Below are positions 9,660 through 61,802 of a DNA stretch of 64,000 bases, in pieces. This stretch comes from a virus. Location of the stretch: positions 1-64,000 of IMG/VR virus record IMGVR_UViG_3300046459_000427, one strand, 5' to 3'. Made by a program: the position numbers and the translations under genes. Numbering within the stretch: the first letter of the stretch is position 1; every line of letters starts with the position of its first letter. Under the pieces are notes generated by a model, which saw only the letters and a list, made by a program, of their open reading frames with translations, was not told the DNA's origin and searched no databases.

Positions 9660-9660
9660 G

Positions 9661-9733
<73 letters not shown>

Positions 9734-10689: not shown

Positions 10690-10695
10690 GTGAAG

Positions 10696-18751: not shown

Positions 18752-18758
18752 CCTAGGG

Positions 18759-19144: not shown

Positions 19145-19329
19145 CACTTCTCCAGTTCGTCGATTCGGTCCAGCACGTACGCGCTGGCGTTGCCGCTGAT
19201 GCTTCCGTGGGACATGACCTCGTGGAGCACCGCCAGCTCGTACTCGTCGAGCAGCGGCTGCGTCGCTCCCAGCCGCCGCAGGACCCGACCCGCGCGGGTC
19301 TTCGCGTCGAGAGTCCTGGTCTTGGCCAC
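19144..19329 (-). CDS. Small helical protein
   Basis: 61 aa, basic N-terminus (MAKTRTLDAKTRAGRVLRRLG). The GTG start shares a base with the TAG of the 17-codon ORF upstream (TAGTG), so its translation is coupled to that ORF. Confidence 0.6.
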   Translation of the reverse strand: MAKTRTLDAKTRAGRVLRRLGATQPLLDEYELAVLHEVMSHGSISGNASAYVLDRIDELEK

Positions 19330-19382
19330 TACCGCTGCCCGCCCTGCTCGACCGAAGCCGCGTAGGTATGAAGTCGCTTCAC
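19329..19382 (-). CDS. Tiny coupled ORF VKRLHTYAASVEQGGQR
   Basis: 17 codons with a GTG start, a good ribosome site (GGGAGGCAGCA) and a stop that overlaps the next start. The LHT tag occupies codons 4-6. The ribosome site and overlap make this a real short gene rather than chance. Confidence 0.6.
   Translation of the reverse strand: MKRLHTYAASVEQGGQR
19365..19373 (-). repeat. LHT tag, copy 12 (exact)
   Basis: Codons 4-6 of the tiny ORF at 19329-19382. Confidence 0.9.
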
Positions 19383-36148: not shown

Positions 36149-36547
36149 TTACTTGCTAGATGTTGGCGTTTCCGTAACCGTTTCCTTCGGGCACGGAATC
36201 TTGACCTGCACGGAATGCGTGTGCTCAAGCCCGTATACGGGGGCGTACGGCGTGGCCGAAGACGTAGGTGCGGGTATTGCGGGGGAAGGCCCGACCACGA
36301 GCGATACCTTGCACGTGCCCGGGGATTTCGACTTCGTCGCTTTCGGCGTCGGCGCAGACAGATACCGGGTCACCGTGGGCACAGGCTGCGGAGTAGAATC
36401 CCCTTCAATCGCCGGAGAATCCGACTGGGAATTCTCGGTATGAAGCCCCGAGAAATCCGACTGGGGAACTACCGAGATCCCAATCGCGGGTACGGCGAGA
36501 ATTCCGATTGCCACAAGGGCGACTTTGATGCGCTGGAGTCCGTTCAT
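36149..36547 (-). CDS. Secreted Pro/Ser/Thr-rich protein
   Basis: 132 aa. Signal peptide or anchor at 5-26 (RIKVALVAIGILAVPAIGISVV), then a low-complexity extracytoplasmic part with two Cys. More AT-rich third positions than neighbours. The ATG overlaps the upstream stop (ATGA). LHT tag at about residues 35-37 (SGLHTENS). Confidence 0.65.
   Translation of the reverse strand: MNGLQRIKVALVAIGILAVPAIGISVVPQSDFSGLHTENSQSDSPAIEGDSTPQPVPTVTRYLSAPTPKATKSKSPGTCKVSLVVGPSPAIPAPTSSATPYAPVYGLEHTHSVQVKIPCPKETVTETPTSSK
36437..36445 (-). repeat. LHT tag, copy 13 (exact)
   Basis: Leu-His-Thr in frame in the secreted protein; the first copy after a gap of about 17 kb. Confidence 0.9.
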
Positions 36548-36705: not shown

Positions 36706-38244
36706 CTAACCTTCCTGGTTGATGTAAGTTGGTACATCGACTATTTCGGCGTCGATGAAACCGGTTGAGGACTCGATCATCCGGTCCGCCGGAACGGGCC
36801 TGTCGAGTGCCGTCATCTGCTCCCCGGCGTCGCGGCCGAAGATACGGCTGATCATACCGGCCCCACCGCCATTCCCCTTAGCCTCCAGTTTCACGGAGAA
36901 GGAATCCTGCTCCAGTTCCGTCTTCACCTTCACGAGTTTCTGAAGCCGGTCGATCTCACCCGACAGGTTCGGATCCGCGTAGCCACCGGTCATATCCTCG
37001 ACCATCTTCATGAAGAGGACCCGCTGCGCCTGCATCTCGATGAGTGAATTCTGGAGCGACTGCATCTGCTGCTTGCTCTTCACTTCGACCGGGATGTCGT
37101 ACGCGCAGTTGGCATTCTGGTCGAAGGCCGGGCACTTCGAGGACAGGAAGCATGACGAGCAGGCCCGCATCGACTGGCTGCGCACGGTCAGGAGAGGGAT
37201 GTCCCGCTCCTTGTTCACGCCGTCCTCGGGGTCGGTGTAGACCTCCTTCTCCTGCACCAGGCCGATGACCGGCAAGTTGGTACGCGGGCGGTCCTTCCGG
37301 GCGCCGGGAGTTGTCACCGGGTTGAGCATTTTTCCGGCCTCCGTATCAACTTCACTACCCTGCAATTGAGCGAAACCCGAAAGTACCCCTCCGGCAGAAG
37401 TAGTAACTGCTTGAGCCTCCTGCGGCCGGTGGTCATCAATCGAGGCCGCCAACTGCTGCCACGACCAGATGGTGAACCGCAGTACTTCGTCGTTCTCTCC
37501 TGCCTCGATACGGTCGGCATCGAAGCCCGCCTCGGTAAACAGCGTGCGGTGCCTTTTACGCGCCTGGTCCTTGTACTTCTTCGGATAGCGCTTCAATTCC
37601 CGGCCGGTCCACACAATGGTGTCACCGTACTGGGAAGGGGAAAGCCAGGAGGTCGACGCGACGCTGTCCCAGTTCACGGCAGCCATTTCCGCAGGCTTAG
37701 TCATAGCCACTCCGTGGAGTAGCGTGCCGTATTTCCTGGTGATCTCGTTGAGCACCGGAGTGAGATTCCGGCCGTCGAGATCTGTCTGCGTCACGCCGAC
37801 GCGCTTATACCTCTGGGCGAGTTTATCGAGTTCGTCTACGCCCCATTCCGAATGCCATATCGGAAGGAACTTGTCTTCCGGCAGGTCCTCGTAGAAGTCC
37901 TCTCGCCGGGCCTCGATCCATTCCCGTCCGAGAACGACAGCGTCGAACTCGGACACCATATGAAGGGAATCGATGTTCTGCTGGACGAATGCCTCGTAAT
38001 GCGCGGCGATGTCTTTCAATTCACCGACCGAGTACTTGTCGTCTTCGGCCTTGTTGACCGTGTAGGCGCCGGAGTCCAGGAAGACCTTCTGGCTGTCGAG
38101 GTAGTTGTCCTCGATCAGCCAGGGCCTCGTGAACTTGGTCCGGCGCCGCAGGCCTATGTACGAGAGGGAGACGGTTTCGACGCCTTCCTCGGCCAGCATC
38201 TTGCGCCAGCCGGGAATCTCGGATCCGCCAAGGAAGAGGTGCAC
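36706..38244 (-). CDS. TGT/DpdA-like TIM-barrel protein
   Basis: 512 aa. FLDSGAYTV (about 55-63) is the Asp-Ser-Gly motif of tRNA-guanine transglycosylases and phage DpdA; later GTLLHGVAMTK and DSVASTSWLSPSQYGD match the second half of the barrel (HG-x ... DSxSW). DpdA inserts 7-deazaguanines into DNA. C-terminal extras: a four-Cys cluster (ACSSCFLSSKC...NC, about 360-380) and a coiled coil. No preQ0-synthesis genes lie in the window. LHT-tag variant L-H-M at about 94-96. Confidence 0.6.
   Translation of the reverse strand: MHLFLGGSEIPGWRKMLAEEGVETVSLSYIGLRRRTKFTRPWLIEDNYLDSQKVFLDSGAYTVNKAEDDKYSVGELKDIAAHYEAFVQQNIDSLHMVSEFDAVVLGREWIEARREDFYEDLPEDKFLPIWHSEWGVDELDKLAQRYKRVGVTQTDLDGRNLTPVLNEITRKYGTLLHGVAMTKPAEMAAVNWDSVASTSWLSPSQYGDTIVWTGRELKRYPKKYKDQARKRHRTLFTEAGFDADRIEAGENDEVLRFTIWSWQQLAASIDDHRPQEAQAVTTSAGGVLSGFAQLQGSEVDTEAGKMLNPVTTPGARKDRPRTNLPVIGLVQEKEVYTDPEDGVNKERDIPLLTVRSQSMRACSSCFLSSKCPAFDQNANCAYDIPVEVKSKQQMQSLQNSLIEMQAQRVLFMKMVEDMTGGYADPNLSGEIDRLQKLVKVKTELEQDSFSVKLEAKGNGGGAGMISRIFGRDAGEQMTALDRPVPADRMIESSTGFIDAEIVDVPTYINQEG
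37957..37965 (-). repeat. LHT tag, copy 14 (variant CTTCATATG)
   Basis: Two bases differ at the third codon; Leu-His-Met in frame in the DpdA-like gene. Confidence 0.55.
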
Positions 38245-38270: not shown

Positions 38271-38927
38271 TTACTTCGGGGGCTGGACGGCGCTCTTCGG
38301 GAAGAGGCCGGGCTGGGTGACGCGGGGCTTCTTGGCGGCCGGAGCGCCCCCAGCGCCCTTCTGCCGTGGGCCTGCCGTCGCGGCCAGACCGAACTGCTGC
38401 GGGGAACGGACCGGGGCGACCTGACTCGGACCGAACAGACCGGCCTGGACGACGCGCTGCGGCTTGGCGGCCGGTGGCGGGGTCTGCGGGGCCGACTGCA
38501 CCGAGGTACTGGCGTGGGTGCCGAACGCTGCGTGGAAGTCGTCCCAGGCCCCACCGGAGGGCTTGCTCTGCGCCTGGATGCCGTTCATCCGGGCGTTGAA
38601 GGTATGAAGGAGGTCGGAGGCCGCGCTGGAGTGCTGGGCGTGCCAGGCGTCGAGGCTGGAGGAGTGGTCCTCGCGCACCCGCTGGATGTCGGCGTGGTTC
38701 TTGATGCCGTTGGCGATGCCCTCGCGGCTCATCACGCGGGCGGCCGGGCTGGTCTGTCCCTTGGCGCGGCTCTTGGTACGGCCGCTGGACGGCTGGGCGA
38801 CGTTGCGGGAGTTCTCCAGGTCGCTGACGCGGTCCTCGACGGTGCGGCGCGAGCCTGGGAACTGGAGGGGCTGGAGGTAGCGGTCGCGGAACTGGGTTGC
38901 TATGGAATGAAAGACGGAGCCACTCAT
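38271..38927 (-). CDS. Hypothetical structural-looking protein
   Basis: 218 aa from ATG 38927 behind AAGGGACACACGGCC. Helical middle (DHSSSLDAWHAQHSSAASDLLHTFNARMNG) and a Pro/Ala-rich C-terminus with repeated Q-P/A-G-L-F (VQAGLFGPSQ, TQPGLFPKSA). The LHT tag is in the helix. No domain recognised. Confidence 0.6.
   Translation of the reverse strand: MSGSVFHSIATQFRDRYLQPLQFPGSRRTVEDRVSDLENSRNVAQPSSGRTKSRAKGQTSPAARVMSREGIANGIKNHADIQRVREDHSSSLDAWHAQHSSAASDLLHTFNARMNGIQAQSKPSGGAWDDFHAAFGTHASTSVQSAPQTPPPAAKPQRVVQAGLFGPSQVAPVRSPQQFGLAATAGPRQKGAGGAPAAKKPRVTQPGLFPKSAVQPPK
38601..38609 (-). repeat. LHT tag, copy 15 (exact)
   Basis: Leu-His-Thr in frame (DLLHTFNA) in the gene at 38271-38927. Confidence 0.9.
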
Positions 38928-39723: not shown

Positions 39724-40574
39724 CTGTGCTCGTGCTCGTGCAGGCCCTCGCGGTGTTCCTGCTCGTGCTTGCGGATGACGCGTTCGGGTGTGCCGCCCAG
39801 GTTCGGGCTGTAGCCGTGGTGCTTGACCAGGTGCTCGATGACGCCGGGGTGCGGTGTCTTGTTCCGCTTGATCTTGTCGACGGGTTCGGCGTGGAACTGG
39901 TCGAGGTTCAGCACATGGGCGCCGATGTGGGTGTCTCCCCGGCCGCGCGCTTCGGCGAGCCGGTGGTGCGCGTCGGCGACGTAGGGGGTGCCTCCCTTGA
40001 TGACCACCTTGACGTGCGGGTGGTCAGGGGCCAGCGGGCCGGTGATGTAGGAGTGCGAGCCGGTCTCGTACGCAGTCTGGCCGGTGTGCAGAACGGCGCT
40101 CGTGCTGATGCTCTGGAACTTGGCGTGCTTGTTCCAGAAGGCCTCGTTGCCGTCGCTCATCTGCGGGCCGTGCTTCTCGTACCACTTGTCGTCGATCTTG
40201 GGGTCGACGATGTTGCCGTGGCCGTCGAGGTGCCCGAACTGCTGCGGGTTGTGAGGCGGGCCCATGACCATCTGCCCGTGCGCCTGCGGGTAGTTGGTGC
40301 GCTCCTCGTCATGGATGAGCGTCTCGTCGCGGGCGGCGCCGAGCGAGGTGACCTTGGTGAACATCCCGCCGCTGTGAGGCGTGGGATGCCCGATATGAAG
40401 CGCGCCAGGTTTGGCCTGGAGGTGCAGCGGCGTGTCCTTGTTCAGGTGGTACGCCGCGCGGAGCGCGGTCTGCTTCTGTCCTTGCTGAGAGACCCGGCTG
40501 CCCAGGGGGATGGGCAGGGCGGTCTGCTCGAACTGTGGACCGGCGGTGTCCGGCTTGCTGCGGGAAGGGGCCAT
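39720..40574 (-). CDS. Protein with ParB/sulfiredoxin-like domain
   Basis: 284 aa. VVIKGGTPYVADAHHRLAEARGRGD (about 185-210) matches the ParB-N/Srx core (DGxHR). N-terminal part with TPLHLQAKPGALHIGH, C-terminal highly charged tail (HEQEHREGLHEHEHR). Parts resemble the large protein at 44854. TGATG overlap with the upstream gene. LHT variant L-H-I at about 60-62; another L-H-T at about 163 uses CTG CAC ACC. Confidence 0.6.
   Translation of the reverse strand: MAPSRSKPDTAGPQFEQTALPIPLGSRVSQQGQKQTALRAAYHLNKDTPLHLQAKPGALHIGHPTPHSGGMFTKVTSLGAARDETLIHDEERTNYPQAHGQMVMGPPHNPQQFGHLDGHGNIVDPKIDDKWYEKHGPQMSDGNEAFWNKHAKFQSISTSAVLHTGQTAYETGSHSYITGPLAPDHPHVKVVIKGGTPYVADAHHRLAEARGRGDTHIGAHVLNLDQFHAEPVDKIKRNKTPHPGVIEHLVKHHGYSPNLGGTPERVIRKHEQEHREGLHEHEHR
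40392..40400 (-). repeat. LHT tag, copy 16 (variant CTTCATATC)
   Basis: Leu-His-Ile in frame in the ParB-like gene. Confidence 0.7.
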
Positions 40575-41643: not shown

Positions 41644-42030
41644 TCAGATCTTGAGAGAAGCGCGGAGTTGTGCCTCCTGCGCCTGCCGCTGCATCGCCTG
41701 GCCGACCGCCATCATCTGCTGCTGGGTACGCTGGGCCGTCTCCATGACGGTCAGGTCCTTCTGCACCACGGCGACGGCGCCGAAGATGTCGTCCGGGGTG
41801 GCTCCTCGCCGGGGGACGAACTTCTGGGTCAGGTCGCTGGTGGCGACGACTGCGCCGTCCAGGCCGACGGCGACGAGGAACGCGGTGGTGACCGGGGTGC
41901 CGATCTCGTCCTCGGCGGGCGGGTTCTCCTCCGCCATCTTGGCCAGGGCTGCCCGCTGCTCGTCGGTGAGATCGGTATGAAGCGCGTCGTCGTTCTTCGT
42001 GGGGGTCTGGCCGAGGATCGGGATGCTCAT
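41644..42030 (-). CDS. Hypothetical Gln/Ala-rich helical protein
   Basis: 128 aa. N-terminal strand part (VTTAFLVAVGLDGAVVATSD) and a long C-terminal helix (TAQRTQQQMMAVGQAMQRQAQEAQLRAS). LHT tag at residues 17-19 (DDALHTDL). ATG behind TGGAGCACTC. Confidence 0.65.
   Translation of the reverse strand: MSIPILGQTPTKNDDALHTDLTDEQRAALAKMAEENPPAEDEIGTPVTTAFLVAVGLDGAVVATSDLTQKFVPRRGATPDDIFGAVAVVQKDLTVMETAQRTQQQMMAVGQAMQRQAQEAQLRASLKI
41974..41982 (-). repeat. LHT tag, copy 17 (exact)
   Basis: Residues 17-19 of the gene at 41644-42030. Confidence 0.9.
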
Positions 42031-43257: not shown

Positions 43258-44148
43258 TCACGCCTTGACGGTGAACAGGCCGCTGGCCGTGGCCAGCTTC
43301 GTCAGGGACTGAAGGCCCGGGGCGCCCTTGGCGTCGTTGCCCTGGTAGCCCTTCTTCCGGCGGAAGAGGTCGTAGGCGTCCTGCGTCTTGGTGCCCCAGG
43401 AGCCGTCCACCCACCTCGCGTCCAGGTAGCCCAGCGCCGACAGCGCCTTCTCGACGAGCAGGACATCGGCCTTGTGGGTCGTGTGGCCCGTGGCCGCCGG
43501 GAGATCGGCCTTGCGGGCCGCCACGACGTTGGAGACGTCCACGACCGGCTTGGCCGCAGGCTTCGGAGCGGGCTTGGCCGCAGGCTTCGGAGCGGGCTTC
43601 GGGGCGGCCGGAGTGGCCGAGGTATGAAGCGAAGGGTTCTGCGACTTCCACGCCGGGTCGGCCGACTCGATACCGCCCGGGTATTCCGGGTAGCCGTAGC
43701 CGTAGACGTGCGCATCGGTCCGGATATGGGTCTTCGAATAGACCCCGTCGCCTTCGGCTGAACCATTCACGTTCGTATTGCCTTCGACGGAATACACGTG
43801 AGTCGCGTCGAATCCGATGACGACCCCGGTGTGCTCACCGCCGCCCGGACCGTAGAAGACCTGCGCACCGATGGCGGGGTACTCGGACCAGCGCTTGCGG
43901 GCCTTGTACCAGGAAACGCCGGTAGCGCACGAGGCGGTAACCGGGTAGGAGCCCTTCGGCAGGCCCGCCGTCTGGAAAGCCCACGCCGCGAATACGGCGC
44001 ACCAGGCACCCTCGACGTTGTCGACCCATTCCAGGCCGGGGACCTTGTCGGCGTACTTCTCGTGGTTGTTCCAGTGGCCGTTGGAATAGCCCTCGTGGTA
44101 CCCCACCTCGGCCTTTACGACCTTGCTGAGAGTGTCGGTCAAAGACAT
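43258..44148 (-). CDS. Endolysin: CHAP domain plus peptidoglycan-binding domain
   Basis: 296 aa. N-terminal CHAP amidase/endopeptidase with Cys in AWCAVFAAWAF (about 50) and His in GGEHTGVVIGF (about 105). A (PAPKPAAK)-type linker follows (about 180-205), then a peptidoglycan-binding-like domain (VEKALSALGYLDARWVDGSWGTKTQDAYDLFR). No signal peptide, so holin-dependent. The LHT tag is at the start of the linker. Confidence 0.92.
   Translation of the reverse strand: MSLTDTLSKVVKAEVGYHEGYSNGHWNNHEKYADKVPGLEWVDNVEGAWCAVFAAWAFQTAGLPKGSYPVTASCATGVSWYKARKRWSEYPAIGAQVFYGPGGGEHTGVVIGFDATHVYSVEGNTNVNGSAEGDGVYSKTHIRTDAHVYGYGYPEYPGGIESADPAWKSQNPSLHTSATPAAPKPAPKPAAKPAPKPAAKPVVDVSNVVAARKADLPAATGHTTHKADVLLVEKALSALGYLDARWVDGSWGTKTQDAYDLFRRKKGYQGNDAKGAPGLQSLTKLATASGLFTVKA
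43621..43629 (-). repeat. LHT tag, copy 18 (exact)
   Basis: Leu-His-Thr in frame at the linker of the endolysin (PSLHTSAT). Confidence 0.9.
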
Positions 44149-44854: not shown

Positions 44855-46110
44855 CAGAACAACTTCTGCTGGCCCGGGTGGACCTCGGTATGAAGCCCGT
44901 TCTTGCCGTAGGTGTTCAGCGAGGAGTCGTGGTTGTCACCACGGCGCCGCTTCTCCTCCGACCACTGCGCGGACTGCATGTTGGTCAGGGAGTTCAGTCC
45001 GCGCTCCTGCATGACGTTGCGGGCGACGTGGTCGTGGAAGGCGTGGATGCCCTTGATACCCATGTACGCCTGCTGGCTGCCGGAGCCCTTCTTGTCCTCC
45101 AGGTGCGGCGCGAAGGCACCACCACCGGAGTGCGTGTCCGACACCCAGAACTGTGAGGAGCCGTGCGGGTCCACCCACGAGTTGTGATAGGCGCCGACCT
45201 TCTCACCGGCCGTCGGCTTCCATGCGTTCGACAACTGCTTGCCGTTGAGGACCTGGTGCGTCACGTCGATCGCCAGGGCGTGGTTACGGGGGTACCCGTT
45301 GGCCGGGTAGGCGCGGGTGTCGCCTTCCTTCTTCACCAGTTGCGTGAACTGCTTGCCCGACTTCGAGGTGACGGTCTTCTCCACCTTGTCCTCGCGCGGG
45401 ACGTAGTAGTCCTTGTGGTAGTGGTAGTCCTCGCCGGTCTTGCCGGATTTGGCCCACTGGATCGCGTGGCTGGCCGCCTGGTCGTTGGGGTAGACCGCCT
45501 TGCCCGTCTCCTTGTCCGGCCGCACGAACACGTTCTGCGGGGACGTGATGGCGTTCGCAGCGGCCTGAACGCCGAAGGGGACACCGTTCTCCTTGGCCGA
45601 GGTCTTCAGACGCGCACGCGGGCTCAGGGAACCGTCCCGGGTGTGGTCGTCGGCCGGGCTGTAGAACGAGTCGTGGTGCCCGCCCTCGTGCGCGTACGCA
45701 CGGTCGACCTGAGAGGCCAGGGCGCGGTGAGCGGAGTCGGGGGTAACACCGAACTTGGCGGCCGAGCGCAGCACGCGGGACTGCTCGGCAGGTGTGTGGT
45801 CCTCCCACCGACGGTTGACCGGCATCATGTCCCTGACCGGGTTCATGGTGTGCTGGCCGTGCCAGACATCAGACCCCTTCGGGCCCTCCAACTCCATCTG
45901 CCCGTGCAGGTTCGGAGCCTTGTCGGTGTTGCCCATCAGCCGGTACGACTGGCGGGGACTGGCTCCGGCTCCGGGCTTGTCCTGGATGGTCGTAAAGCGC
46001 TGCGGGTTGGCGGCCTCGTAGGACTGCCGCTTGGCCGAGGCGTCCTTGACGGTCTTGTTGTAGGCGCGGGTATCCGCAGCCTTCTGTGCTGGGGTCTTGC
46101 TCGCAGCCAT
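44854..46110 (-). CDS. Large structural-type hypothetical protein
   Basis: 418 aa. Helical charged N-terminus; KAPNLHGQMELEGPKGSDVWHGQH and RAYAHEGGHHDSFYSP in the first half; a conserved-looking His-rich part (HNSWVDPHGSSQFWVSDTHSGGGAFAPHLEDKKG...GIKGIHAFHDHVARNVMQERGLN) in the second. The His content suggests metal binding. It shares short similarities with the protein at 39720. LHT tag close to the C-terminus (NGLHTEVHPG). Confidence 0.65.
   Translation of the reverse strand: MAASKTPAQKAADTRAYNKTVKDASAKRQSYEAANPQRFTTIQDKPGAGASPRQSYRLMGNTDKAPNLHGQMELEGPKGSDVWHGQHTMNPVRDMMPVNRRWEDHTPAEQSRVLRSAAKFGVTPDSAHRALASQVDRAYAHEGGHHDSFYSPADDHTRDGSLSPRARLKTSAKENGVPFGVQAAANAITSPQNVFVRPDKETGKAVYPNDQAASHAIQWAKSGKTGEDYHYHKDYYVPREDKVEKTVTSKSGKQFTQLVKKEGDTRAYPANGYPRNHALAIDVTHQVLNGKQLSNAWKPTAGEKVGAYHNSWVDPHGSSQFWVSDTHSGGGAFAPHLEDKKGSGSQQAYMGIKGIHAFHDHVARNVMQERGLNSLTNMQSAQWSEEKRRRGDNHDSSLNTYGKNGLHTEVHPGQQKLF
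44887..44895 (-). repeat. LHT tag, copy 19 (exact)
   Basis: Ten codons before the end of the 418-aa gene. Confidence 0.9.
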
Positions 46111-48205: not shown

Positions 48206-48810
48206 GCGAAGGCCAGGATCTCCCTGACCTTGGTATGAAGGTCTTCGAGGGTGCCGTCGTTGACCAGGCGGACGTCGAACCACTTGTCCGGGAGGGGCTT
48301 CTCCGACTTGTGGTCGTTGACGGCGCCGATGCCGGGCCGGTCGATCTTGATGAGCAGGCCGAGGCGGGAGTCGATGGCGTGGTGCTCGTTCTCGAACCGC
48401 AGGTCGGTGAAGACGTACTTCTTGTTCTCGTCGAGGTTCTTGAAGGCGGCCTTGACCCACACGTTCTGGTCGATCATCTCGCGGCCGACCTCGGTGCCCA
48501 GGACCTGGAGCATCCGGCGGATCTCCTCGTACTGGCGCTTGGCGTCATCCCAGCCGAGGTTGTCCACGAGGTCCTGGACGCGGAGGTGGTAGCCGTACTC
48601 GTCGGTGATGATGATCGGGTTGAGGACGTACAGGGCCTCGCGGAGGTTGTCGGCGAAGGCGACGGCGGTGTAGCCGTAGTCGGCGAGGATCTTGGCGACG
48701 GTGTCCTTGCCTGCGCTCGGGTAGCCGTGGAGGCCGACGAACTGCGGGAGCCAGGACTCGATGATGTCGTGGCCGTCGGTGGCGGTGGCGGTGGCGGTGG
48801 CGGTGGTCAC
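48202..48810 (-). CDS. Deoxynucleoside monophosphate kinase
   Basis: 202 aa. P-loop GYPSAGKDT at 29-37, then AVAFADNLREALYVLNP and VFTDLRFENE, as in T4 gene 1-type dNMP kinases that convert dNMP to dNDP. The N-terminal TATATATAT comes from a GGTGGC tandem repeat. GTG behind GGAGAAAACCA. LHT tag near the C-terminus (EDLHTKVRE). Confidence 0.85.
   Translation of the reverse strand: MTTATATATATDGHDIIESWLPQFVGLHGYPSAGKDTVAKILADYGYTAVAFADNLREALYVLNPIIITDEYGYHLRVQDLVDNLGWDDAKRQYEEIRRMLQVLGTEVGREMIDQNVWVKAAFKNLDENKKYVFTDLRFENEHHAIDSRLGLLIKIDRPGIGAVNDHKSEKPLPDKWFDVRLVNDGTLEDLHTKVREILAFA
48232..48240 (-). repeat. LHT tag, copy 20 (exact)
   Basis: Leu-His-Thr in frame near the end of the dNMP kinase. 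Confidence 0.9.
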
Positions 48811-49728: not shown

Positions 49729-50405
49729 TTGGCGGACACCTTGCTCTTCGGCGCCTCGTCGTTCTTGATCGTGGCCTTGAAGAAGGCCCCGGCCGCGTCG
49801 TGCCAGACGACGACACCTTCGGGGTCCTGGAAGCCTGGGGCGATGAAGGAGCCGTCCGACTCCAAGGTATGAAGCGCGATGTTGACGGCGTAGTTCAGGT
49901 CGTTGCCGTTGGCGACCAGGATGACCGGGACGACGGTGACCTCCGGCGGGGCCGGTACGGCCTTGGGGAAGGTCGTCAGGTACTGGTCGGTGACCTCGGG
50001 GTCGCGGATGTCGTACCAGCGGTTGACGTTGAAGAGCGCGAATCGCTTCTCGTCGAGGCCGTAGCCGGACTGGATGCCCTTGCCGAACCACTCGCCGTAG
50101 TGGCGGCCGGGGCCGAGCGCGGTCAGCGCCACGGAGTTGTCGAAGACCCAGTTGGCGAAGCCGAAGTTGTCGTTGTTCCGGTCCAGCCAGCGGTTGCGGC
50201 TGCCTGCTCGGACGATGAAGGGTTCGTTGTCGCGGTAGGCGAGGACTCCCTGGGAGACGTCCTGGGTGTCGGCGTCGAAGTCCGCGAGCGGGGTGATCTC
50301 GATCAGGCCGTTCGTGCCGTCGACCTTCTCGGTAAGCACGACCTTGCGGTGCAGGCGGGGGATGGGGCGGAACTTCGGGTAATCGCTGGCCTTGAGGATG
50401 GTCAT
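49725..50405 (-). CDS. Rnl2-type RNA ligase
   Basis: 226 aa. EKVDGTNGLIEI (K27, motif I KxDGxN), YGEWFGKGIQSGYG (motif III), EGVVVWH (motif IV) and FFKATIKND (motif V) define an RNA ligase of the Rnl2 family, catalytic domain only. It seals nicks in duplex RNA or repairs tRNA. It is the second RNA ligase in the window. ATG 50405 behind GGGGACTGACCACCAC (long spacing). LHT tag between motifs III and IV. Confidence 0.85.
   Translation of the reverse strand: MTILKASDYPKFRPIPRLHRKVVLTEKVDGTNGLIEITPLADFDADTQDVSQGVLAYRDNEPFIVRAGSRNRWLDRNNDNFGFANWVFDNSVALTALGPGRHYGEWFGKGIQSGYGLDEKRFALFNVNRWYDIRDPEVTDQYLTTFPKAVPAPPEVTVVPVILVANGNDLNYAVNIALHTLESDGSFIAPGFQDPEGVVVWHDAAGAFFKATIKNDEAPKSKVSAK
49866..49874 (-). 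repeat. LHT tag, copy 21 (exact)
   Basis: Leu-His-Thr in frame in the Rnl2-type ligase (IALHTLES). Confidence 0.9.
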
Positions 50406-52941: not shown

Positions 52942-53074
52942 ATGAGGCCTCCAGGAGTGTGGCGAGGAGATTGAACTTCTCGTGGGACCGGCCCTGGCGC
53001 CGGGAGTACCGGACGCCAAGGGCCAGGATGTAAACGGCTGCTATGACCAGCAGCGCGGAGAGGATGGCCACCAT
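52862..53074 (-). CDS. Small membrane protein
   Basis: 70 aa: one span (VAILSALLVIAAVYILALGV), then a basic then acidic tail. TGATG overlap with recA. Its last 80 bases overlap the start of the resolvase-like gene in another frame, an unusually long overlap. Confidence 0.55.
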   Translation of the reverse strand: MVAILSALLVIAAVYILALGVRYSRRQGRSHEKFNLLATLLEASYGGHAQEEPEAGAAGSGTPRRDGERG

Positions 53075-54252
53075 CAGGCGGCCTGGGTATGAAGCCCGTC
53101 GGCCTCTTCCGGCTTCGGCCGTCGGCTGACCTTCTTGGTGCCCGAGTTCTCGGCGGCCGTCAGGTCGTCCTCGGAGATGGAACGCTCATCCGCGTGCTGC
53201 GAGGCGGCGAGGACCTTTTCGTAGAGGAATTCCTGGAGGTCCAGGTCCTCTCGAATTGCGGCGAGGGTGTTCTCCTTGCTGTGCCAGCGAAGGACGGGCT
53301 TTCCCCTGTCGTCGTATTCGCCGTTGTCGACCTCGTAGTAAGCGCCCGCGCGCTTGATGACGTCGAAGAGGATCCCCATGATCATGATTTCCTTTGTGGT
53401 GTCGAAATCACCACGGGTGAAATTCAGATAGGGAGCGGAGCGGAAGTAGGCGTCGATCGTGGCGATCTGCTGCGGGGCCGCCGACTTGTTCTTGATGGTC
53501 TTCACCTTGATGACCTGGCCGACGTTCACCTTGCCCTTTCCGGGCCGAGGCTCCTGAATCCACTCGTCGCGTCGGACTTCCACCCTGGTGTAGAACGCAT
53601 AATTCTTCGCGTTTCCGCCGGGGGTTGTGGTCGGCGTGCCGTGCGGGGAGAACTTGCCGATGGCGTCGCGGTACTGGTTGATGACGATGCCGAGCAGCGG
53701 GCGGTCCTCGGGGTCGGTCATGCTGCGCTTCGTCGCGGCGCCGGACTTCCGGAAGAACTTGCCGGTGAGACGGGCGCCCAGCGCCATGGTCGCCTCGTCC
53801 ATGTCCTTCTCGGACTCCTCGTCCGGTATGAGCGCCGGGTAGGAGTCGAGGACGATCATGTCGACCGAGCGGGACGTCGCGAAGTCGAGCATGGTCTGGT
53901 AGGCGAATTCCATGGCCTGGGTGGGGACGACGATCACGCGGTCGTTGTCGACGCCCAGCGCTTCGGCCTGGTCGGTGTCGTAGTGCTCTGCGGCGATCCA
54001 CAGGCACGTGAAGTCGGGGTCCTTCTTCTGGTTGGCGGCCAGCGTCTTGTAGACGATGAAGGTCTTGCCGTGGGACTCACGGCCGATGACCTCGACCCAC
54101 TGGTTGCCCGGCCAGCCACCGCCGAGGGCGATGTCCAGGGAGAGGGAGCCGGAGGTGAAGCGCTTGGCCACGCGCATGTCCGAGGCGAAACACACGGCAC
54201 CCGGATGGGTCTTGTTGATCTTGGCGAGAAGTGCGAGGGCGTCCTTGTTCAC
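53074..54252 (-). CDS. recA: RecA-type recombinase
   Basis: 392 aa. Walker A GRESHGKT at 57-64; SVDMIVLDSYPALIP (Walker B) at about 128; VINQYRDAIGKFSPHGTPTTTPGGNAKNYAFYTRVEV is the L2/strand region with the TPGGNA signature typical of RecA. ATP-driven strand exchange. GTG two bases after the stop of the leader ORF MRLHTYGGPC. LHT tag five codons from the end (DGLHTQAA). Confidence 0.92.
   Translation of the reverse strand: MNKDALALLAKINKTHPGAVCFASDMRVAKRFTSGSLSLDIALGGGWPGNQWVEVIGRESHGKTFIVYKTLAANQKKDPDFTCLWIAAEHYDTDQAEALGVDNDRVIVVPTQAMEFAYQTMLDFATSRSVDMIVLDSYPALIPDEESEKDMDEATMALGARLTGKFFRKSGAATKRSMTDPEDRPLLGIVINQYRDAIGKFSPHGTPTTTPGGNAKNYAFYTRVEVRRDEWIQEPRPGKGKVNVGQVIKVKTIKNKSAAPQQIATIDAYFRSAPYLNFTRGDFDTTKEIMIMGILFDVIKRAGAYYEVDNGEYDDRGKPVLRWHSKENTLAAIREDLDLQEFLYEKVLAASQHADERSISEDDLTAAENSGTKKVSRRPKPEEADGLHTQAA
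53086..53094 (-). repeat. LHT tag, copy 23 (exact)
   Basis: C-terminal codons of recA (GLHTQAA); the same GLHTQAA string occurs in the gene at 60414. Confidence 0.9.
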
Positions 54253-54254
54253 GC

Positions 54255-54287
54255 TCAACAGGGGCCCCCGTAGGTATGAAGTCGCAT
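54255..54287 (-). CDS. Tiny leader ORF MRLHTYGGPC before recA
   Basis: ATG CGA CTT CAT ACC TAC GGG GGC CCC TGT TGA: 10 codons with AGGAG 11 bases upstream and a stop two bases before the GTG of recA. The tag is at codons 3-5. Its start, MRLHTYGG, closely resembles MTLHTYGG of the gene at 17684. Confidence 0.6.
   Translation of the reverse strand: MRLHTYGGPC
54273..54281 (-). repeat. LHT tag, copy 24 (exact)
   Basis: Codons 3-5 of the recA leader ORF. Confidence 0.9.
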
Positions 54288-54332
54288 GTGTGGTGTTACT
54301 CCTGATCCGATAGCGCGGAAGCGATAACGAAG

Positions 54333-54373
54333 AACCGGTAGTCCCCATACCATAACGGTGAAGGGACTACCGG
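54333..54373 (-). terminator. Terminator of nrdJ
   Basis: 12-bp arms ACCGGTAGTCCC / GGGACTACCGGT followed by TTCTTCGTTATCGCTT on the minus strand, a tail nearly shared with the terminator at 9236. Confidence 0.85.
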
Positions 54374-54417
54374 TCCACTCATGTATCAACTAGTCCAGCG
54401 AAGAACTTTGAGAACTT

Positions 54418-56379
54418 TCAGGCAGTCACGAGGTCGACGTCCTCGCAGCCACCGGCCGCCGAGCAAGCCAGCGCCTGGGAGCCCACGGTCTGGTCGTAGG
54501 TCTCGTAAAAGGCCAGGTCCGACCACTCGACGCGGTGCTCCTGGGTGATCAGAGCCTCGTACTCGGCCTCCGTGATCTCCTCGTACGGCGCCTGCACGTA
54601 GGTGTGATCGCTGTACGGAAGGAAGGAGACTCCCGAGATCTCGCCCAGGTGCTCCCAGACCCACTCGCCGACCTCGTCCCACTCGTGCTCGCGCACGCTG
54701 ATGGTCACCGACGGCTTGTGCTCGCACCAGAAGCGCTGATAGGCGAGCCAGATCTTCAGGTGCTCGATCGCGGAGACGTCTTCACGCACCAGCGCGGTGT
54801 TGCTGGCACGCTGGGCGAAGGTGAACACCCACGCCGAGGAGTTGTAGGCGTCCTCCTCGTGCGGAATCCCCCCGTCGATCATCACGAACGAGATGGGGTC
54901 CTTCTTGTCCACCCGCACGCGCCGCTTGTAGAAGCGGGCGTGCTTGGTATGAAGCCCGCTCTCGCAGTCGACCAACTGGGAGACGGTCCCGGAGGGCTTC
55001 ACGCAGGTGATCGCGTCCGAGGACGGGATGCCGATGCGCCGGGCCTCCTTCTCGTTGGCGATGCGGGCCGTCAGGCGAAGGTCGGTCAGCGTGAGGGACG
55101 TGAGGCCGTCACCCTTGCTGCCGTCGGTGTTCTGGTTGCCGAAGACCCCGGTGAGGGAGACGCCCAGCAGCCGCTCCTCCTCCGCGTTCTTGCGCCACTC
55201 CTCACGCAGGTACGGGTAGTCCGTCAGCGTGCTCTGCCAGGTGCCCAGGGTGGCCGCCAGGCTCACCTTGCGCTCCAGGTCCTCGACGGTGTCCTCCGGC
55301 CGCACGACGACCTCGGACAGGTTGCAGAACGAGAACGGCCGAAGAATGATCTCCGAGCACGGGTTGGTCCCGTAGTCGGTGTCGGCCGAGCGGTGCCCGT
55401 ACTTCGCAGCCTGACGCTGGGCCGCACCACGGTGGAAGATGCCACGCTCACCCGAGCCGCTGGCTACCAGGGAGCCCCACTCGGCGCGGAAGTCCTCGTG
55501 ACGCATGCCGTCGTAGTAGACGGCCGAGTTGTTGGCCAGCGCACGGTAGCCGTGATCCTTCCACCACTCCCCAGCCTTCGCCTGCGCCATCTCCTGGTCG
55601 TCCAGATCGGACAGGGAGATCATCGCGGACCGCCGGACACCACCGACCACGACGACGCTGGCTATCTTGCAGGCGATGTCGTGGACCTCGATCGGCCGGA
55701 ACTTCCGACCGGCGGCCTGGTGGAACTTCTCCACGGTGAACGCGAACAGTTCGTCCAGCGGACCCGGGCCGGAGGCACGCCCACCGAAGGTACGAAGGCG
55801 GGCACCGGCAGGCCGGATCCCGGACAGGTCCCACTGGTGTACCTCGCCCTGCCACAGGCCTTCCAGCAGGGCCCGGAACGCATAGCCCCAGCCCTCCTTG
55901 GAGTCCTCGACGACGATCACGTCGGCAGACGCCCGAAGGGTGTCCGGGACGGCAGGCAACTGGTCGGTGTACTGGCGCTCGACCGAGTAGCCGACGCCCG
56001 TGCCGTTCATGAGGATGTAGAGGAGTTCGTCCAGGGCGCGCGGGTCCTGGAGCGGCAGGTACGAACAGTTGAAGCCCGCGATGTTCGAGCGGTCCAGGGC
56101 GGCACCGGCCGTCATCACCGCGCGCATCGACGGCATGACCTCGTGGTTGAGGACCGCCTGGCGGACGGCCGCGACGACCCCCTGCTCGGGGATGTAGTCG
56201 TGCTTGTCCTTCAACTGGCCGAGCATGAAGTCGACGTAGCGGTCGACGGTCTCGGTCCAGGTCTCGCGGCGGTTGCGCTCCTCGTCCCAGCGGGCGTACC
56301 GGGACTTGGCGATGAAGGAGCGGTAGGGGTCGGCGATGTCGCCGGTCGGAGTGAGCAGGGAGGTCACCAGGAGGTCCAT
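54418..56379 (-). CDS. nrdJ: Adenosylcobalamin-dependent ribonucleotide reductase (class II)
   Basis: 653 aa, similar in size and motifs to monomeric B12-dependent RTPR: FNCSYLPL (first thiol), NPCSEIILRPFSFCNLSEVVV (active-site region), and CxxxxxC near the C-terminus (ALACSAAGGCEDVDL) for regeneration. It makes dNTPs without oxygen, using host B12. The LHT tag falls at SGLHTKHARFY, where the family normally has S-G-I-H-P. ATG 56379 lacks a clear ribosome site. Confidence 0.92.
   Translation of the reverse strand: MDLLVTSLLTPTGDIADPYRSFIAKSRYARWDEERNRRETWTETVDRYVDFMLGQLKDKHDYIPEQGVVAAVRQAVLNHEVMPSMRAVMTAGAALDRSNIAGFNCSYLPLQDPRALDELLYILMNGTGVGYSVERQYTDQLPAVPDTLRASADVIVVEDSKEGWGYAFRALLEGLWQGEVHQWDLSGIRPAGARLRTFGGRASGPGPLDELFAFTVEKFHQAAGRKFRPIEVHDIACKIASVVVVGGVRRSAMISLSDLDDQEMAQAKAGEWWKDHGYRALANNSAVYYDGMRHEDFRAEWGSLVASGSGERGIFHRGAAQRQAAKYGHRSADTDYGTNPCSEIILRPFSFCNLSEVVVRPEDTVEDLERKVSLAATLGTWQSTLTDYPYLREEWRKNAEEERLLGVSLTGVFGNQNTDGSKGDGLTSLTLTDLRLTARIANEKEARRIGIPSSDAITCVKPSGTVSQLVDCESGLHTKHARFYKRRVRVDKKDPISFVMIDGGIPHEEDAYNSSAWVFTFAQRASNTALVREDVSAIEHLKIWLAYQRFWCEHKPSVTISVREHEWDEVGEWVWEHLGEISGVSFLPYSDHTYVQAPYEEITEAEYEALITQEHRVEWSDLAFYETYDQTVGSQALACSAAGGCEDVDLVTA
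54946..54954 (-). repeat. LHT tag, copy 25 (exact)
   Basis: Leu-His-Thr in frame in nrdJ at a family-conserved L/I-H position. Confidence 0.9.
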
Positions 56380-57309: not shown

Positions 57310-59288
57310 TACTTTGCCTCCGACCAGCGGTCCACGATCTTCACGTCGGAAGACAGCGGAACCTTGAGCAGTTTCTGAATGTCGTCGCCGAGCATGGCTT
57401 CCTTCACCAGAGCGGCGGCTTCCTCGGCGCGGTCCTCCGGAGCGAGCACCACGAGTTCGTCGTGCACGGAGAGGATCAGCCGGATCTCGTCCGGCAGGAT
57501 GTTGTTCAGCCGGATCATCGCCAACTTGATCAGGTCGGCAGCCGAGCCCTGGATGAGGCTGTTGACTGCCTGGCGCTCGGCACCCATGCGCAGGCCGTTG
57601 TTCTGCGACAGGATGAGCGGCAGGCGCCGCTTGCGGCCGAGCAGCGTGCGGATGTACGGGGGTCGGCGCGACCGGCAGACCCGGACGACTTCTTCCTTGA
57701 AGCGGTAGATCTCGGGGAACAACTTCTGGTGCATCTCCATGAAGCGCTTGGCTTCCTTGACGGAGATCTTCGCCATCGATGCGACCTTGTCCGGGCCTGC
57801 ACCGTAGACGACTGCGAAGTTGATTCCCTTGGCGACCTGGCGGAAGTCGATGCACTCCCGGTCGCCCGCCTTTACCCGCCGGATGAATTCCTGCGGGTCC
57901 ACTCCCATAAGAGCGGCAGCGGTGGCCGAGTGAGGGTCGACGCCGTTGTGGAAGCCCTTGTACAGATCGCCTCGGCCGATGAAGTGCGCGAGCACGACCA
58001 GTTCGATCTGTCCGTAGTCCGCGACGACCAGTTTGTATCCGGCCGGTGCCACGAACAGTCCACGGATTCGCTTGCCGAGTTCCGTGTCCGGGCGCGGGAT
58101 GTTCTGGAGGTTGGGTTCCCGGCAGGAGAATCGTCCGGTCACCGTTCCGTACTGGACGAAGTCGGCGTGGATCCGGCCGCCGAATATCCGGCAGGGCTTC
58201 TTCGGGTCATCTTCGACCCCGAGGTAGGACACCGGGTAGTCGATCAGCTTGCTGACTTCGGAGTACTCCAGCAGCTTCTTGACGACGGCGTTGTTCTCGT
58301 GCTTTTCCAGGCTGGCGGCGTCGGTGGAGTAGTCCTTCCACTCCAGCTCCTGCCCGGCCTCGCGCTTCTTCTTGCCGCCGTCGGTCGGCTTGGTGGGGCG
58401 CAGGCCCTGGCCGCCGTCCTTCTTGGGTGCGTACAGCACCTCGGCCTTCTGGGCCGGGGCGTTGAGATTGAACTGCTTGCCCGCAGCGCGGTAGATGTCC
58501 GCCTCGATGTCCACCAGGCGCTCGGACATGTCGCGGACCAGCTCGCGCATGGCCTGCTCGTCGACCGGTGCCCCGGTGATGCCCATGTCGAGCAGTACGC
58601 CGAGGACGTCCTCTTCCAGTCGCCGGACGTTGATCAGGTGCTGGTCGTCGATCCGCTTCTGGAACTTCTTCCAGAGCAGGTAGGTGTACTTCGCGTCCAT
58701 GTAGGCGTAGTGGCCCACCTTGGAGAAGGGGTGTGCCTCGACGCACTTGCCGACGTTCTCAGTGTCGTAGTCGACCTTGTAGTAGCGCTTGACGAGTTCC
58801 TTGAGGCCCTTCTGTTTCATGTTCTCGTCGAGGAGCCACTGAAGGACGATGGTGTCCGAGTACTTCGGGGGTGCGATCTCGCCCCAGTACTTCGCCGTGG
58901 AGATGAGGTCGAAGGTCGCGTTGTGCGCGATCTTGATCTTGTCCTCGGCGAAGAACAGCGGCTTGAGGATGGAGAACACCTCGGAGGGGAGCATCTGCTC
59001 CGGCGGGGCGTCGTAGACGGCCGGGATGTTGTCGAACTTCCCGGTGATCTTGTTCTTCTTCTTCGTGGCCTTGCTCAGCAGGACGTCGCCGTTGGGGTGG
59101 CCGAACGGAATGGCGTAGGCCTCACCGTCGGTGGCCAGGCTCATCCAGTTGGCGACGTTCTGTGTCGGGACTCCTCGGTTGGCGCCGAAGGTCTCGATGT
59201 CGAAAGCGAAGGCCGGGCGCTCCATGAAGCGCTCGACCAAAGTATGAAGTCGGTCGGGGGTGAGGATGACGCTGTTCCGGATGGTCAC
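57309..59288 (-). CDS. polA: Family A DNA polymerase with 3'-5' exonuclease
   Basis: 659 aa. Exonuclease motif FAFDIETF (about 27-34), HNATFDL and YAYMDAKYTYLLW; polymerase motif A VADYGQIEL (usually DYSQIEL, Ser replaced by Gly), motif B RQVAKGINFAVVYG and motif C VHDELVV (about 609). It replicates the phage genome. GTG behind CTGGAGGTACCGCCC. LHT tag at residues 14-16 (DRLHTLVERF). A terminator separates it from the SSB operon. Confidence 0.95.
   Translation of the reverse strand: MTIRNSVILTPDRLHTLVERFMERPAFAFDIETFGANRGVPTQNVANWMSLATDGEAYAIPFGHPNGDVLLSKATKKKNKITGKFDNIPAVYDAPPEQMLPSEVFSILKPLFFAEDKIKIAHNATFDLISTAKYWGEIAPPKYSDTIVLQWLLDENMKQKGLKELVKRYYKVDYDTENVGKCVEAHPFSKVGHYAYMDAKYTYLLWKKFQKRIDDQHLINVRRLEEDVLGVLLDMGITGAPVDEQAMRELVRDMSERLVDIEADIYRAAGKQFNLNAPAQKAEVLYAPKKDGGQGLRPTKPTDGGKKKREAGQELEWKDYSTDAASLEKHENNAVVKKLLEYSEVSKLIDYPVSYLGVEDDPKKPCRIFGGRIHADFVQYGTVTGRFSCREPNLQNIPRPDTELGKRIRGLFVAPAGYKLVVADYGQIELVVLAHFIGRGDLYKGFHNGVDPHSATAAALMGVDPQEFIRRVKAGDRECIDFRQVAKGINFAVVYGAGPDKVASMAKISVKEAKRFMEMHQKLFPEIYRFKEEVVRVCRSRRPPYIRTLLGRKRRLPLILSQNNGLRMGAERQAVNSLIQGSAADLIKLAMIRLNNILPDEIRLILSVHDELVVLAPEDRAEEAAALVKEAMLGDDIQKLLKVPLSSDVKIVDRWSEAK
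59241..59249 (-). repeat. LHT tag, copy 26 (variant CTTCATACT)
   Basis: Synonymous variant (ACT for ACC), Leu-His-Thr in frame near the N-terminus of polA. Confidence 0.75.
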
Positions 59289-59368: not shown

Positions 59369-60178
59369 TCAGTCGTTCAGGATCTCGCGGGCGATCTGCT
59401 TGAGTTCGTTGCGCGTGTTCACCTGGAGGACGTCCTCGTCGTACGCCTTGTCGTCGAACTCCTCCAGGTCCTCCTCGGTCAGGGGCTCGACGTCCCAGTC
59501 ATCGAGGAGGTCCCGCTCCTTCACGGGGGTGATGTAGTAGGTCGTCTTGTTGTTCTTGGACTGCTTGGAGACGGAGAAGTACAGGTCGTCCCGGTTGATC
59601 GGCGCCGTCTTCTTGTCCTTGGAGTAGTTCTTGAGGATGTCCGCGACCATCGGGCCGAACTGCCAGATCTTGACCTGCGGGTCCTCGGGGTCGGTGAAGT
59701 CGACGACGTTGAAGCAGACCTGCTGGGAGGGCTTGTCGCCTGCGTCGTCGCACAGGGGGCAGCGGGACTCCAGGCACGTCCAGGACCGCTTGCCCTTGCG
59801 CTCGATCCAGTGCTGGAGGAAGACCAGGAACGGCTCCTCGTCGAGGATCTTCACGACCACGGCCTCGCCGGTCACCTTGAAGTTCTCGGGGAAGCCGGAC
59901 GTGGCGCTCTTGGTCTTCTCGTACGAGCCCCATCCCTTGCCGCCGACCTTCGGGGTGGGCTCGTCGTCCTCGTCGTCCTCCTGGGAGCGACGCGAGCGAC
60001 GGGAGGAGGTGTCGGCCTCCTCGGTATGAAGCGACTGGCGGCGCGAGCCACGGCGGGAGCCCCGGGCCGGACGCTCGTCCTCGTCGTCCTCCGGGAGGTT
60101 GTTGTCCTCCGGCTCGTCGGCGGGGGTGTAGGCCTCGGTGGACGCGGCGGTGCGGCGGCGGGTGAGGGTGCGGGGCAT
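59369..60178 (-). CDS. Single-stranded DNA-binding protein, gp32-like
   Basis: 269 aa. Basic-acidic N-terminus (ARGSRRGSRRQSLHT, then EDDEDDEP), a core with WTCLESRCPLCDDAGDKPSQQVCFNVVDF (a zinc site as in T4 gp32-like proteins) and an acidic C-terminal half (VEPLTEEDLEEFDDKAYDED), the typical SSB tail. Probably the phage SSB. TGATG overlap upstream. LHT tag in the basic part. Confidence 0.75.
   Translation of the reverse strand: MPRTLTRRRTAASTEAYTPADEPEDNNLPEDDEDERPARGSRRGSRRQSLHTEEADTSSRRSRRSQEDDEDDEPTPKVGGKGWGSYEKTKSATSGFPENFKVTGEAVVVKILDEEPFLVFLQHWIERKGKRSWTCLESRCPLCDDAGDKPSQQVCFNVVDFTDPEDPQVKIWQFGPMVADILKNYSKDKKTAPINRDDLYFSVSKQSKNNKTTYYITPVKERDLLDDWDVEPLTEEDLEEFDDKAYDEDVLQVNTRNELKQIAREILND
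60023..60031 (-). repeat. LHT tag, copy 27 (exact)
   Basis: Leu-His-Thr in frame in the SSB-like gene. Confidence 0.9.
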
Positions 60179-60417: not shown

Positions 60418-60875
60418 TGCTCGGCCAGCCGCTTGAAGAGGTCGATGACGCGGAGGGTGAAGTTGGTGCCCTTGATCGGCTTCTGGTGGGAGACCAGGAC
60501 GCCTTCCTCGTACGCGATGCGGACGATGCCCTCGACCTGCTCACGGGTGTAGAGGCGGCGTCGCCCGCGTACGTCGTCGTCCCGGCCGGGCGACTGGAAG
60601 GTGGACTTGGGGATAATCCCCTCGCGCTCCCACTTGCGGATGGTGACCGGCTGGCGGCCCAGGGCGCGGCCGAGCTGGCCGACGGTGAAGAACTCGGTCT
60701 CGACGCCGCCCACGTTGTACTTGCGGGGCTTGGCGTCCCAGTCGGCCGCCGAGGTGGCGGCCTGGGTATGAAGCCCGTTGCGGTTCTGGTGGCGGACGAT
60801 CGGCTTGGTGGATCCGGGGTAGAACTGCTCCCCGATCTCGGCGAAGTCCTGCTCGATGCTGGCGAGGGTGCTCAT
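60414..60875 (-). CDS. MerR-like helix-turn-helix protein
   Basis: 153 aa. EFFTVGQLGRALGRQPVTIRKWEREGIIPKSTF...GRRRLYTREQVEGIVRIA is a MerR-type winged HTH. The first 50 residues are not conserved and hold the LHT tag (NGLHTQAATS), a string also at the RecA C-terminus. Probably a phage transcription regulator or replication-initiator-like DNA binder. Confidence 0.75.
   Translation of the reverse strand: MSTLASIEQDFAEIGEQFYPGSTKPIVRHQNRNGLHTQAATSAADWDAKPRKYNVGGVETEFFTVGQLGRALGRQPVTIRKWEREGIIPKSTFQSPGRDDDVRGRRRLYTREQVEGIVRIAYEEGVLVSHQKPIKGTNFTLRVIDLFKRLAEQ
60765..60773 (-). repeat. LHT tag, copy 28 (exact)
   Basis: Leu-His-Thr in frame in the MerR-like gene (GLHTQAA). Confidence 0.9.
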
Positions 60876-61448: not shown

Positions 61449-61802
61449 TTACGCCTTCTTGAAGGCATCCCGGAACGCCTGGCGGGCAGCGTAGCGGCGG
61501 GCCGCTTCGTCCTTCTGGTCACGGCGGAGGACCGTCTCGGCCACGTCCTGGTAGACGGTGACGACGCGCTTCTCTTCCGGGTCGACGACGGCCACGAGGT
61601 CCCCCCGGATGTGCCGAACCTGTCCAGGAACGCGGCCCGAGGGGTAGGTATGAAGCGGCTCGTTTGCCGCGAGGAGAACGTCCGCGCTGCTCCAGCCCTT
61701 GGCGGCGGCCTGCTGCTGCGCGTGGTGGGTCAGCCGGTAGGTCGGTGCGTCAGTGACGGCTGCGGACCAGGTGATGCCAAGGGTCTCTGCGATGGTGGCC
61801 AT
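61449..61802 (-). CDS. DUF4258-like protein
   Basis: 117 aa. YRLTHHAQQQAAAKGWSSADVLLAANEP...VPGQVRHIRGDLVAVVDPEEKRVVTVY has the H-A-xx-R-like start and two late strands of the small DUF4258/RelE-like fold, though the usual Arg is replaced by Gln. Own promoter. LHT tag at EPLHTYPSG. Confidence 0.65.
   Translation of the reverse strand: MATIAETLGITWSAAVTDAPTYRLTHHAQQQAAAKGWSSADVLLAANEPLHTYPSGRVPGQVRHIRGDLVAVVDPEEKRVVTVYQDVAETVLRRDQKDEAARRYAARQAFRDAFKKA
61647..61655 (-). repeat. LHT tag, copy 29 (exact)
   Basis: Leu-His-Thr-Tyr in frame in the DUF4258-like gene. Confidence 0.9.

Follow-up and report, generated by a model that had tools for sequence, protein, structure and literature searches.

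A 64,000-nucleotide stretch of viral DNA, positions 1 to 64,000 of IMG/VR record IMGVR_UViG_3300046459_000427 (hereafter the window), carries an open reading frame (ORF) of ten codons at the start of recA. A first-pass annotation had read it as a leader peptide of recA. We find that the ORF is one carrier of a nine-base message, CTT-CAT-ACC, present at about 40 places in the phage genome, and that the pattern of these copies points to a phage control system that would read mRNA in step with the ribosome.

The ORF before recA carries a motif that sister phages place within recA

54255 to 54287, minus strand: tiny leader ORF encoding MRLHTYGGPC, with the motif, coupled to recA (its stop TGA overlaps the recA start TTG)
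54273 to 54281, minus strand: motif CTTCATACC in the leader ORF
53074 to 54258, minus strand: recA, start TTG at 54258 (PF00154, E=9.5e-42)
53086 to 53094, minus strand: motif at the recA C-terminus (GLHTQAA, then stop)

The minus strand from 54287 to 54255 reads ATG CGA CTT CAT ACC TAC GGG GGC CCC TGT TGA, with AGGAG 11 nucleotides 5' of the ATG, so the ten-codon ORF and its upstream ribosome-binding sequence are as first described. The position of the stop, placed two bases before the recA start, had to be corrected: recA begins at the TTG at 54258, which overlaps the leader stop as TTGA, a shared stretch of 4 nucleotides. At recA loci of relatives the overlap is TTGA or GTGA, and since several (for example L015 and L017) lack the GTG placed earlier, the true recA start is the TTG or GTG that overlaps the leader stop. 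We located 51 viral loci by a RecA-based scan, most relatives being metagenomic contigs. The leader ORF, its AGGAG Shine-Dalgarno sequence and the NTGA stop/start overlap occur at 15 of the 15 recA loci read in the clade of the window, and from these loci translation of the tiny ORF and its translational coupling to recA are well supported.

In the interval from the reductase gene to the recA leader, positions 54300-54390 hold an inverted repeat (CCGGTAGTCCC...GGGGACTACCGG) followed by TTCTT, probably a terminator; a 38-nucleotide stretch resembling it recurs at 16068 and 36042.

A device dedicated to recA, whether leader peptide or attenuator, draws support from the coupled ORF and Shine-Dalgarno sequence in the window clade. 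Comparison of recA upstream regions, which the first-pass annotation had proposed, tells against it, since at 18 loci of a sister clade recA has no separate leader ORF and the motif lies within recA itself (M-x-LNT...). On the strength of that fusion we rejected a leader peptide acting as a recA attenuator, and dozens of unrelated genes contain this motif too. The coupled ORF thus stands while its specificity for recA does not, and we consider a recA-only device largely refuted and very improbable. Judged from these loci, the peptide is dispensable and the conserved element is the nine-base motif.

The motif is dispersed along one strand

The likeness of the leader to the gene beginning MTLHTYGG had been taken as reuse of a protein N-terminus. 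The likeness is real and extends over 18 identical bases (CTTCATACCTACGGGGGC), but what is shared is a nucleotide motif. The tag reported at the recA C-terminus is likewise present, as GLHTQAA, and is a further copy of the motif, which accounts for the shared LHT.

Within the window CTTCATACC occurs 23 times, always on the minus, coding strand, and TTCATACC 24 times against 0.62 expected, with shuffled sequences never exceeding 3. Over the full record of 104,853 bases, exact 9-mers are distributed 28:1 between the strands, and 8-mers of the motif are the most enriched in the genome. Copies fall at the N-termini, C-termini and middles of unrelated genes, including internal positions in the conserved genes for ribonucleotide reductase, DNA polymerase, kinase and ligase. 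The wider consensus is G-CTT-MAT-AYY (M = A or C) with TAG-like bases after it: G or A usually precedes the motif, and the codon after it looks like TAG with single substitutions. In the window genome a single gene holds two copies where 4.8 would be expected by chance, a depletion that is not significant in every genome. Spacing across 36-72 kb is more even than random (P 0.016), and the accessory region at 19.4-36.4 kb has zero copies. We found nothing complementary to the motif apart from its own reverse strand, and we rejected pairing with an antisense RNA on that ground. The following sites lie in the window.

6 to 14, minus strand: motif with a poor -1 context; the same codons are present in sister-clade record G006
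6500 to 6508, minus strand: motif, MazG-like gene
7510 to 7518, minus strand: motif variant CTTCATATC
8291 to 8299, minus strand: motif, exonuclease gene
8813 to 8821, minus strand: motif, exonuclease gene
13572 to 13580, minus strand: motif, polynucleotide kinase-phosphatase gene
15025 to 15033, minus strand: motif, RNA ligase gene
17325 to 17333, minus strand: motif
17684 to 17935, minus strand: gene starting MTLHTYGG, with the motif as its codons 3-5
17921 to 17929, minus strand: motif in that gene
38601 to 38609, minus strand: motif
40392 to 40400, minus strand: motif variant CTTCATATC
41974 to 41982, minus strand: motif
43621 to 43629, minus strand: motif, endolysin-like gene
44887 to 44895, minus strand: motif close to a C-terminus
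48232 to 48240, minus strand: motif close to the C-terminus of deoxynucleoside monophosphate kinase
49866 to 49874, minus strand: motif
54946 to 54954, minus strand: motif within ribonucleotide reductase (SGLHTKHA)
59241 to 59249, minus strand: motif variant CTTCATACT, DNA polymerase
60023 to 60031, minus strand: motif
60765 to 60773, minus strand: motif
61647 to 61655, minus strand: motif

The motif is held in one translated reading frame

We called genes with a home-made codon-usage gene caller and counted frames in eight related phage records with the eight-base pattern CTTMATAY. Every one of the 244 nine-base copies within called genes has the sense orientation and frame 0. The same is true of 261 of 262 CTTMATAY copies (Leu-His/Asn-Thr/Ile), the other being a single antisense-only copy. 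Many copies are homologous between genomes and the counts are not independent; after removal of sites with similar surroundings about 102 CAT and 67 AAT sites are left. Outside called sense genes, 51 of 51 copies are open to an upstream start in frame 0, against 19 in frame 1, 12 in frame 2 and 54% of random positions, and a start with a Shine-Dalgarno sequence lies within 24 codons of these copies in 18, 0 and 1 cases for frames 0, 1 and 2. Several such copies sit in tiny ORFs (MRLHTYGGPC, MKTIRLHT, VRRLNT, VVRLNT, MGISLHTYRLLGAAE and VTLNTCPREGDPR, each followed by a stop), many of which overlap the start of the next gene by 1 or 4 nucleotides. In seven genomes, one locus retains a start codon 12 nucleotides upstream of the motif while the intervening codons vary. 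Besides the recA leader, the window has the following tiny or uncalled ORFs with the motif.

18759 to 18785, minus strand: tiny ORF MKTIRLHT, ending in the motif and TAG (in the sister clade VRRLNT or VVRLNT)
18762 to 18770, minus strand: motif in that ORF
19329 to 19382, minus strand: tiny ORF VKRLHTYAASVEQGGQR, overlapping the next gene start by 1 nucleotide
19365 to 19373, minus strand: motif in that ORF
36149 to 36547, minus strand: uncalled 132-codon ORF with the motif in frame 0
36437 to 36445, minus strand: motif in that ORF

At the MKTIRLHT site (18735-18770) a reverse-complementary stretch comes after the ATACC of the motif (ATACCTAG-CC-CTAGGTAT), and sister-clade copies show a similar inverted repeat.

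Codon usage does not account for the frame. CTTCATAC occurs 27 times in frame 0 of genes against 0.025 (~0.03) expected, an enrichment of ~1000-fold confined to that frame. The same expectation for sense frames 0, 1 and 2 is 0.025:0.018:0.119, with ~0.62 for antisense, so that codon usage, taken alone, would favor frame 2 and the antisense strand in the CAT clade. With CTTAATAC, TTA and TAA close off the other sense frames, and the frame argument therefore rests mainly on the CAT clade and the tiny ORFs. Taken together, these counts show that the motif needs a translated ORF in one fixed frame.

These results bear on two alternatives. The motif might be a set of asymmetric DNA sites at which a prophage repressor binds and blocks transcription, as in cluster A mycobacteriophages, the frame being a by-product. 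The number of sites, their single orientation to transcription and their clade-specific variants do resemble stoperators (PMC6550527), the genome has integrase-type genes, and the near prohibition of other sense frames by TAA and TTA would explain the frame in the AAT clade. In the CAT clade, however, the antisense strand and the remaining frames are open to the motif yet empty, copies outside long genes lie in short translated ORFs, of which some have conserved starts, and no DNA-binding regulator among 55 comparable genes tracks the motif type. We regard stoperator-like sites as unlikely.

Alternatively, the motif might be a translated RNA-binding or pausing site that stalls or recodes ribosomes without cleavage and so tunes coupled downstream genes. 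Frame dependence, the rare codons CTT and CAT/AAT and the coupled tiny ORFs would all suit such a site; CUU is a classical +1 slippery codon, and slippage there would skip the clade-variable M. However, most copies lie within essential genes, where a stall or shift would cost expression, and the conservation of flanking bases (G at -1, TAG-like after) suggests recognition by a protein. This makes pausing without cleavage decidedly unlikely.

Selection acts on nucleotides

LHT is encoded by CTTCATACY 27 times in this genome and by other codons twice. Between the window record and G001 the CTT codon is kept at 32 of 32 motif sites against 37 of 109 other sites. A peptide-level tag, Leu-His/Asn-Thr serving for example as a cleavage or sorting signal, would fit the constant translation of the motif as L-[HN]-[TI]. 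Yet synonymous LHT codings are not enriched, the CTT codon is frozen and the flanking bases are conserved; we rejected a protein tag on the synonymous-codon counts, and we consider a peptide signal of any such kind extremely unlikely. Since synonymous codings are not enriched, selection, as judged from these comparisons, acts at the level of nucleotides that must be translated rather than of the peptide.

The motif switches between clades

The window clade carries CTT-CAT-ACC and the sister clade, whose RecA is 84-86% identical, CTT-AAT-ACC. CTTCATACC is present in 23-34 copies in five further window-clade records, and CTTAATACC is absent from the record of the window itself and from the four of these five that were searched for it. 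CTTAATACC was first seen at sister recA starts, and its genome-wide spread, predicted from there, came true: six sister records hold 24-37 copies of it and 0-1 of CTTCATACC. At 20 of 28 aligned homologous sites G010 carries CTTAATA, a concerted switch. A single CTTCATACC is also present at each of three AAT-type loci; that of G006 is a poor-context copy in one gene.

In more distant relatives CTTCATACC and CTTAATACC are each limited to a few scattered copies at most, and no comparable in-frame motif was found in outer relatives G012, G013, G015 and G016. In G014 (L113-L118), a motif-free relative, CTTCTAGSC occurs in 19 copies, all on one strand, and Leu-Leu followed by G or C shows a strong preference for CTT-CTA. 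We rejected this pattern as an instance of the same phenomenon; it resembles a Leu-Leu codon-pair preference.

Two genes follow the motif type

2014 to 2259, minus strand: solitary HicA-like protein (alpha-beta3-alpha, invariant GGNH) whose allele type follows the motif type
2020 to 2028, minus strand: motif variant CTTCATATC, 3' end of the HicA-like gene
7296 to 7490, minus strand: 64-residue protein, the only other gene with alleles split by motif type

Among the 55 genes comparable across clades, a strong split by motif type is confined to these two, with z 4.3 for the HicA-like gene and z about 5 for 7296-7490; the gene beside hicA shows no split. CAT-type HicA-like loci carry CTTCATACC in 11 of 11 cases, and AAT-type loci carry CTTAATACC in 10 of 10. 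The motif type thus co-segregates with HicA-like alleles.

The HicA family profile PF07927 matches a copy 88% identical to that of the window with E=5e-5 and the window copy itself with E=0.019. The AlphaFold model of 2014-2259 is alpha-beta3-alpha with a conserved His (mean predicted local distance difference test score 76), and its top Foldseek PDB match is the Thermus thermophilus HB8 protein 1whz (prob 0.87, E 0.09), which we take to be TTHA1913. TTHA1913 has been treated as a HicA (PMC10865869). Escherichia coli HicA has a strong preference for cleaving immediately 5' of the first base of a codon (PMC8546651), in keeping with the frame rule of the motif. The window gene ends in the variant CTTCATATC, which by analogy with RegB may possibly reflect autoregulation; most sister copies end in GLNL and lack the full motif.

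The 64-residue protein, alone or with the HicA-like protein, could instead be the recognition factor. Its alleles split at least as strongly, and the gene was not found in the outgroups searched. The protein has no family match, its fold gave weak matches only and nothing ties it to RNA, and we think a recognition role for it improbable. On present evidence the HicA-like protein would be the most likely factor.

A model for control of phage mRNA

We propose that G-CTT-MAT-AYY is the recognition site of a phage-encoded factor acting on mRNA in register with the translating ribosome, most likely the HicA-like protein, a putative relative of ribosome-register mRNA interferases. Its action on translated phage mRNAs at the motif, whether cleavage or, with lower probability, binding alone, would silence phage transcripts or reduce their number. 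This would happen during one phase of lytic growth, as with T4 RegB, or would constitute post-transcriptional prophage immunity. The leader ORF would serve as a carrier, bringing ribosomes to translate a copy of the site immediately ahead of recA, and CAT and AAT would be two specificity types co-evolved with two factor alleles. We favor a codon-register target of an RNA-targeting factor, probably HicA-like, only tentatively, giving it somewhat less than an even chance. A bolder version, in which the factor reads the nine-base word inside the ribosome and inactivates every phage mRNA carrying it, so that CAT and AAT form heteroimmune types one base apart, seems to us rather unlikely; if true, such immunity or self-recognition would be the translational counterpart of stoperators.

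Several points weigh against the proposal. The whole case is made at sequence level, and the H/N contrast between clades amounts in essence to a single evolutionary event. The motif type co-segregates with a pair of genes instead of a single one. The best PF07927 score, 23.7 bits, is under the curated cut-off of 27, and sister-clade copies have no match to that profile at all. No HicB partner was found with PF15919 in seven records, other HicB families not being searched. Outer relatives G014 and G015 have a HicA-like gene and lack the motif. Known HicA toxins have, to our knowledge, low sequence specificity, not nine bases, and it would be unusual for a phage to keep ~40 cut sites within its own genes.

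The literature searched held no description of such an in-frame motif in phages, and we know of no dispersed regulatory motif that needs one translated frame yet is conserved as nucleotides. Set against the defining tests of each known kind that we considered, a motif that is translated, locked to one frame, conserved as nucleotides and divided into clade-specific forms belongs to none of them and appears to be a new phenomenon. It implies a sequence-specific factor reading mRNA in step with the ribosome, a natural specificity switch from CAT to AAT and a candidate gene open to testing. Confirmation would mean a new layer of phage gene control or superinfection immunity and provide a highly sequence-specific, ribosome-register RNA-targeting protein.

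Genome setting

The record resembles a myovirus (tail sheath, baseplate). Its positions 102077-104107 encode a serine recombinase N-terminus, recognized by inspection, and 100605-101681 a tyrosine integrase, so the phage is probably temperate. On the plus strand at 4912-5962 lies a helix-turn-helix/DUF5753 regulator with a DUF397 protein, a pair familiar from Streptomyces that points to an actinobacterial host. An Lsr2-like DNA-binding protein is encoded at 11171-11536 (Lsr2_DNA-bd E=2.7e-7). An RNA repair set comprises a polynucleotide kinase-phosphatase (13038-13961), a T4-type RNA ligase 1 (14257-15357) and an RlaP-like nucleotidyltransferase (16219-16872), and suggests that RNA breakage matters in the life of the phage. 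Five tRNA genes (His, Asn, Leu-CAA, Phe, Pro) lie at 9573-10768, tRNA-His being present in some window-clade genomes only; tRNA sets do not follow motif type, and we therefore rejected pairing of a phage tRNA-His or tRNA-Asn with the CAT or AAT codons as the driver of the motif. The gene at 36706-38244, found in all related records compared, matches phrog_887 (queuine tRNA-ribosyltransferase, E=1.2e-75) and possibly encodes a DpdA-type 7-deazaguanine DNA modification enzyme.

Comparison with known systems

A conserved separate leader ORF, as expected of a recA attenuator, is present at the 15 window-clade loci and fused into recA at the 18 of the sister clade. Start-associated sequences of cluster K mycobacteriophages are a short repeat linked to translation throughout the phage genome and found just upstream of start codons; they lie outside the reading frame, whereas the motif here is within ORFs and in frame. 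Cluster A mycobacteriophage stoperators share with the motif many short asymmetric sites in one orientation (here 28:1) and lineage-specific variants (PMC6550527). Stoperators, however, are DNA sites of a transcription repressor and indifferent to frame, whereas the sites here are tied to translated ORFs and one frame (261/262 in frame 0; 51/51 open).

HicA toxins (PF07927) resemble the candidate in being small alpha-beta3-alpha proteins of dsRBD-like fold with an invariant His in GGNH, and E. coli HicA cuts in codon register; the candidate departs from the family in its sub-threshold score and in that no PF15919 partner was found in seven records. No HicA known to us comes near the specificity that a target of nine bases would imply.

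Nor do we know of a clade-specific site switch for RegB. T4 RegB cuts the mRNA that encodes it, phage polynucleotide kinase cooperates with it and ribosome involvement is suspected (PMC3014915). Its sites (GGAG, extended GG*AGRAYARAA) likewise represent phage-encoded mRNA control by a dispersed, fairly long RNA motif, and the present genome encodes a polynucleotide kinase-phosphatase. RegB sites lie mostly in Shine-Dalgarno regions without codon register, whereas the motif here is codon-registered, and RegB has a RelE/YoeB-like fold where the candidate models as alpha-beta3-alpha and HicA-like (RegB itself was not searched for). Should the HicA-like factor be confirmed as an mRNA interferase, this system would join the phage regulators that target mRNA.
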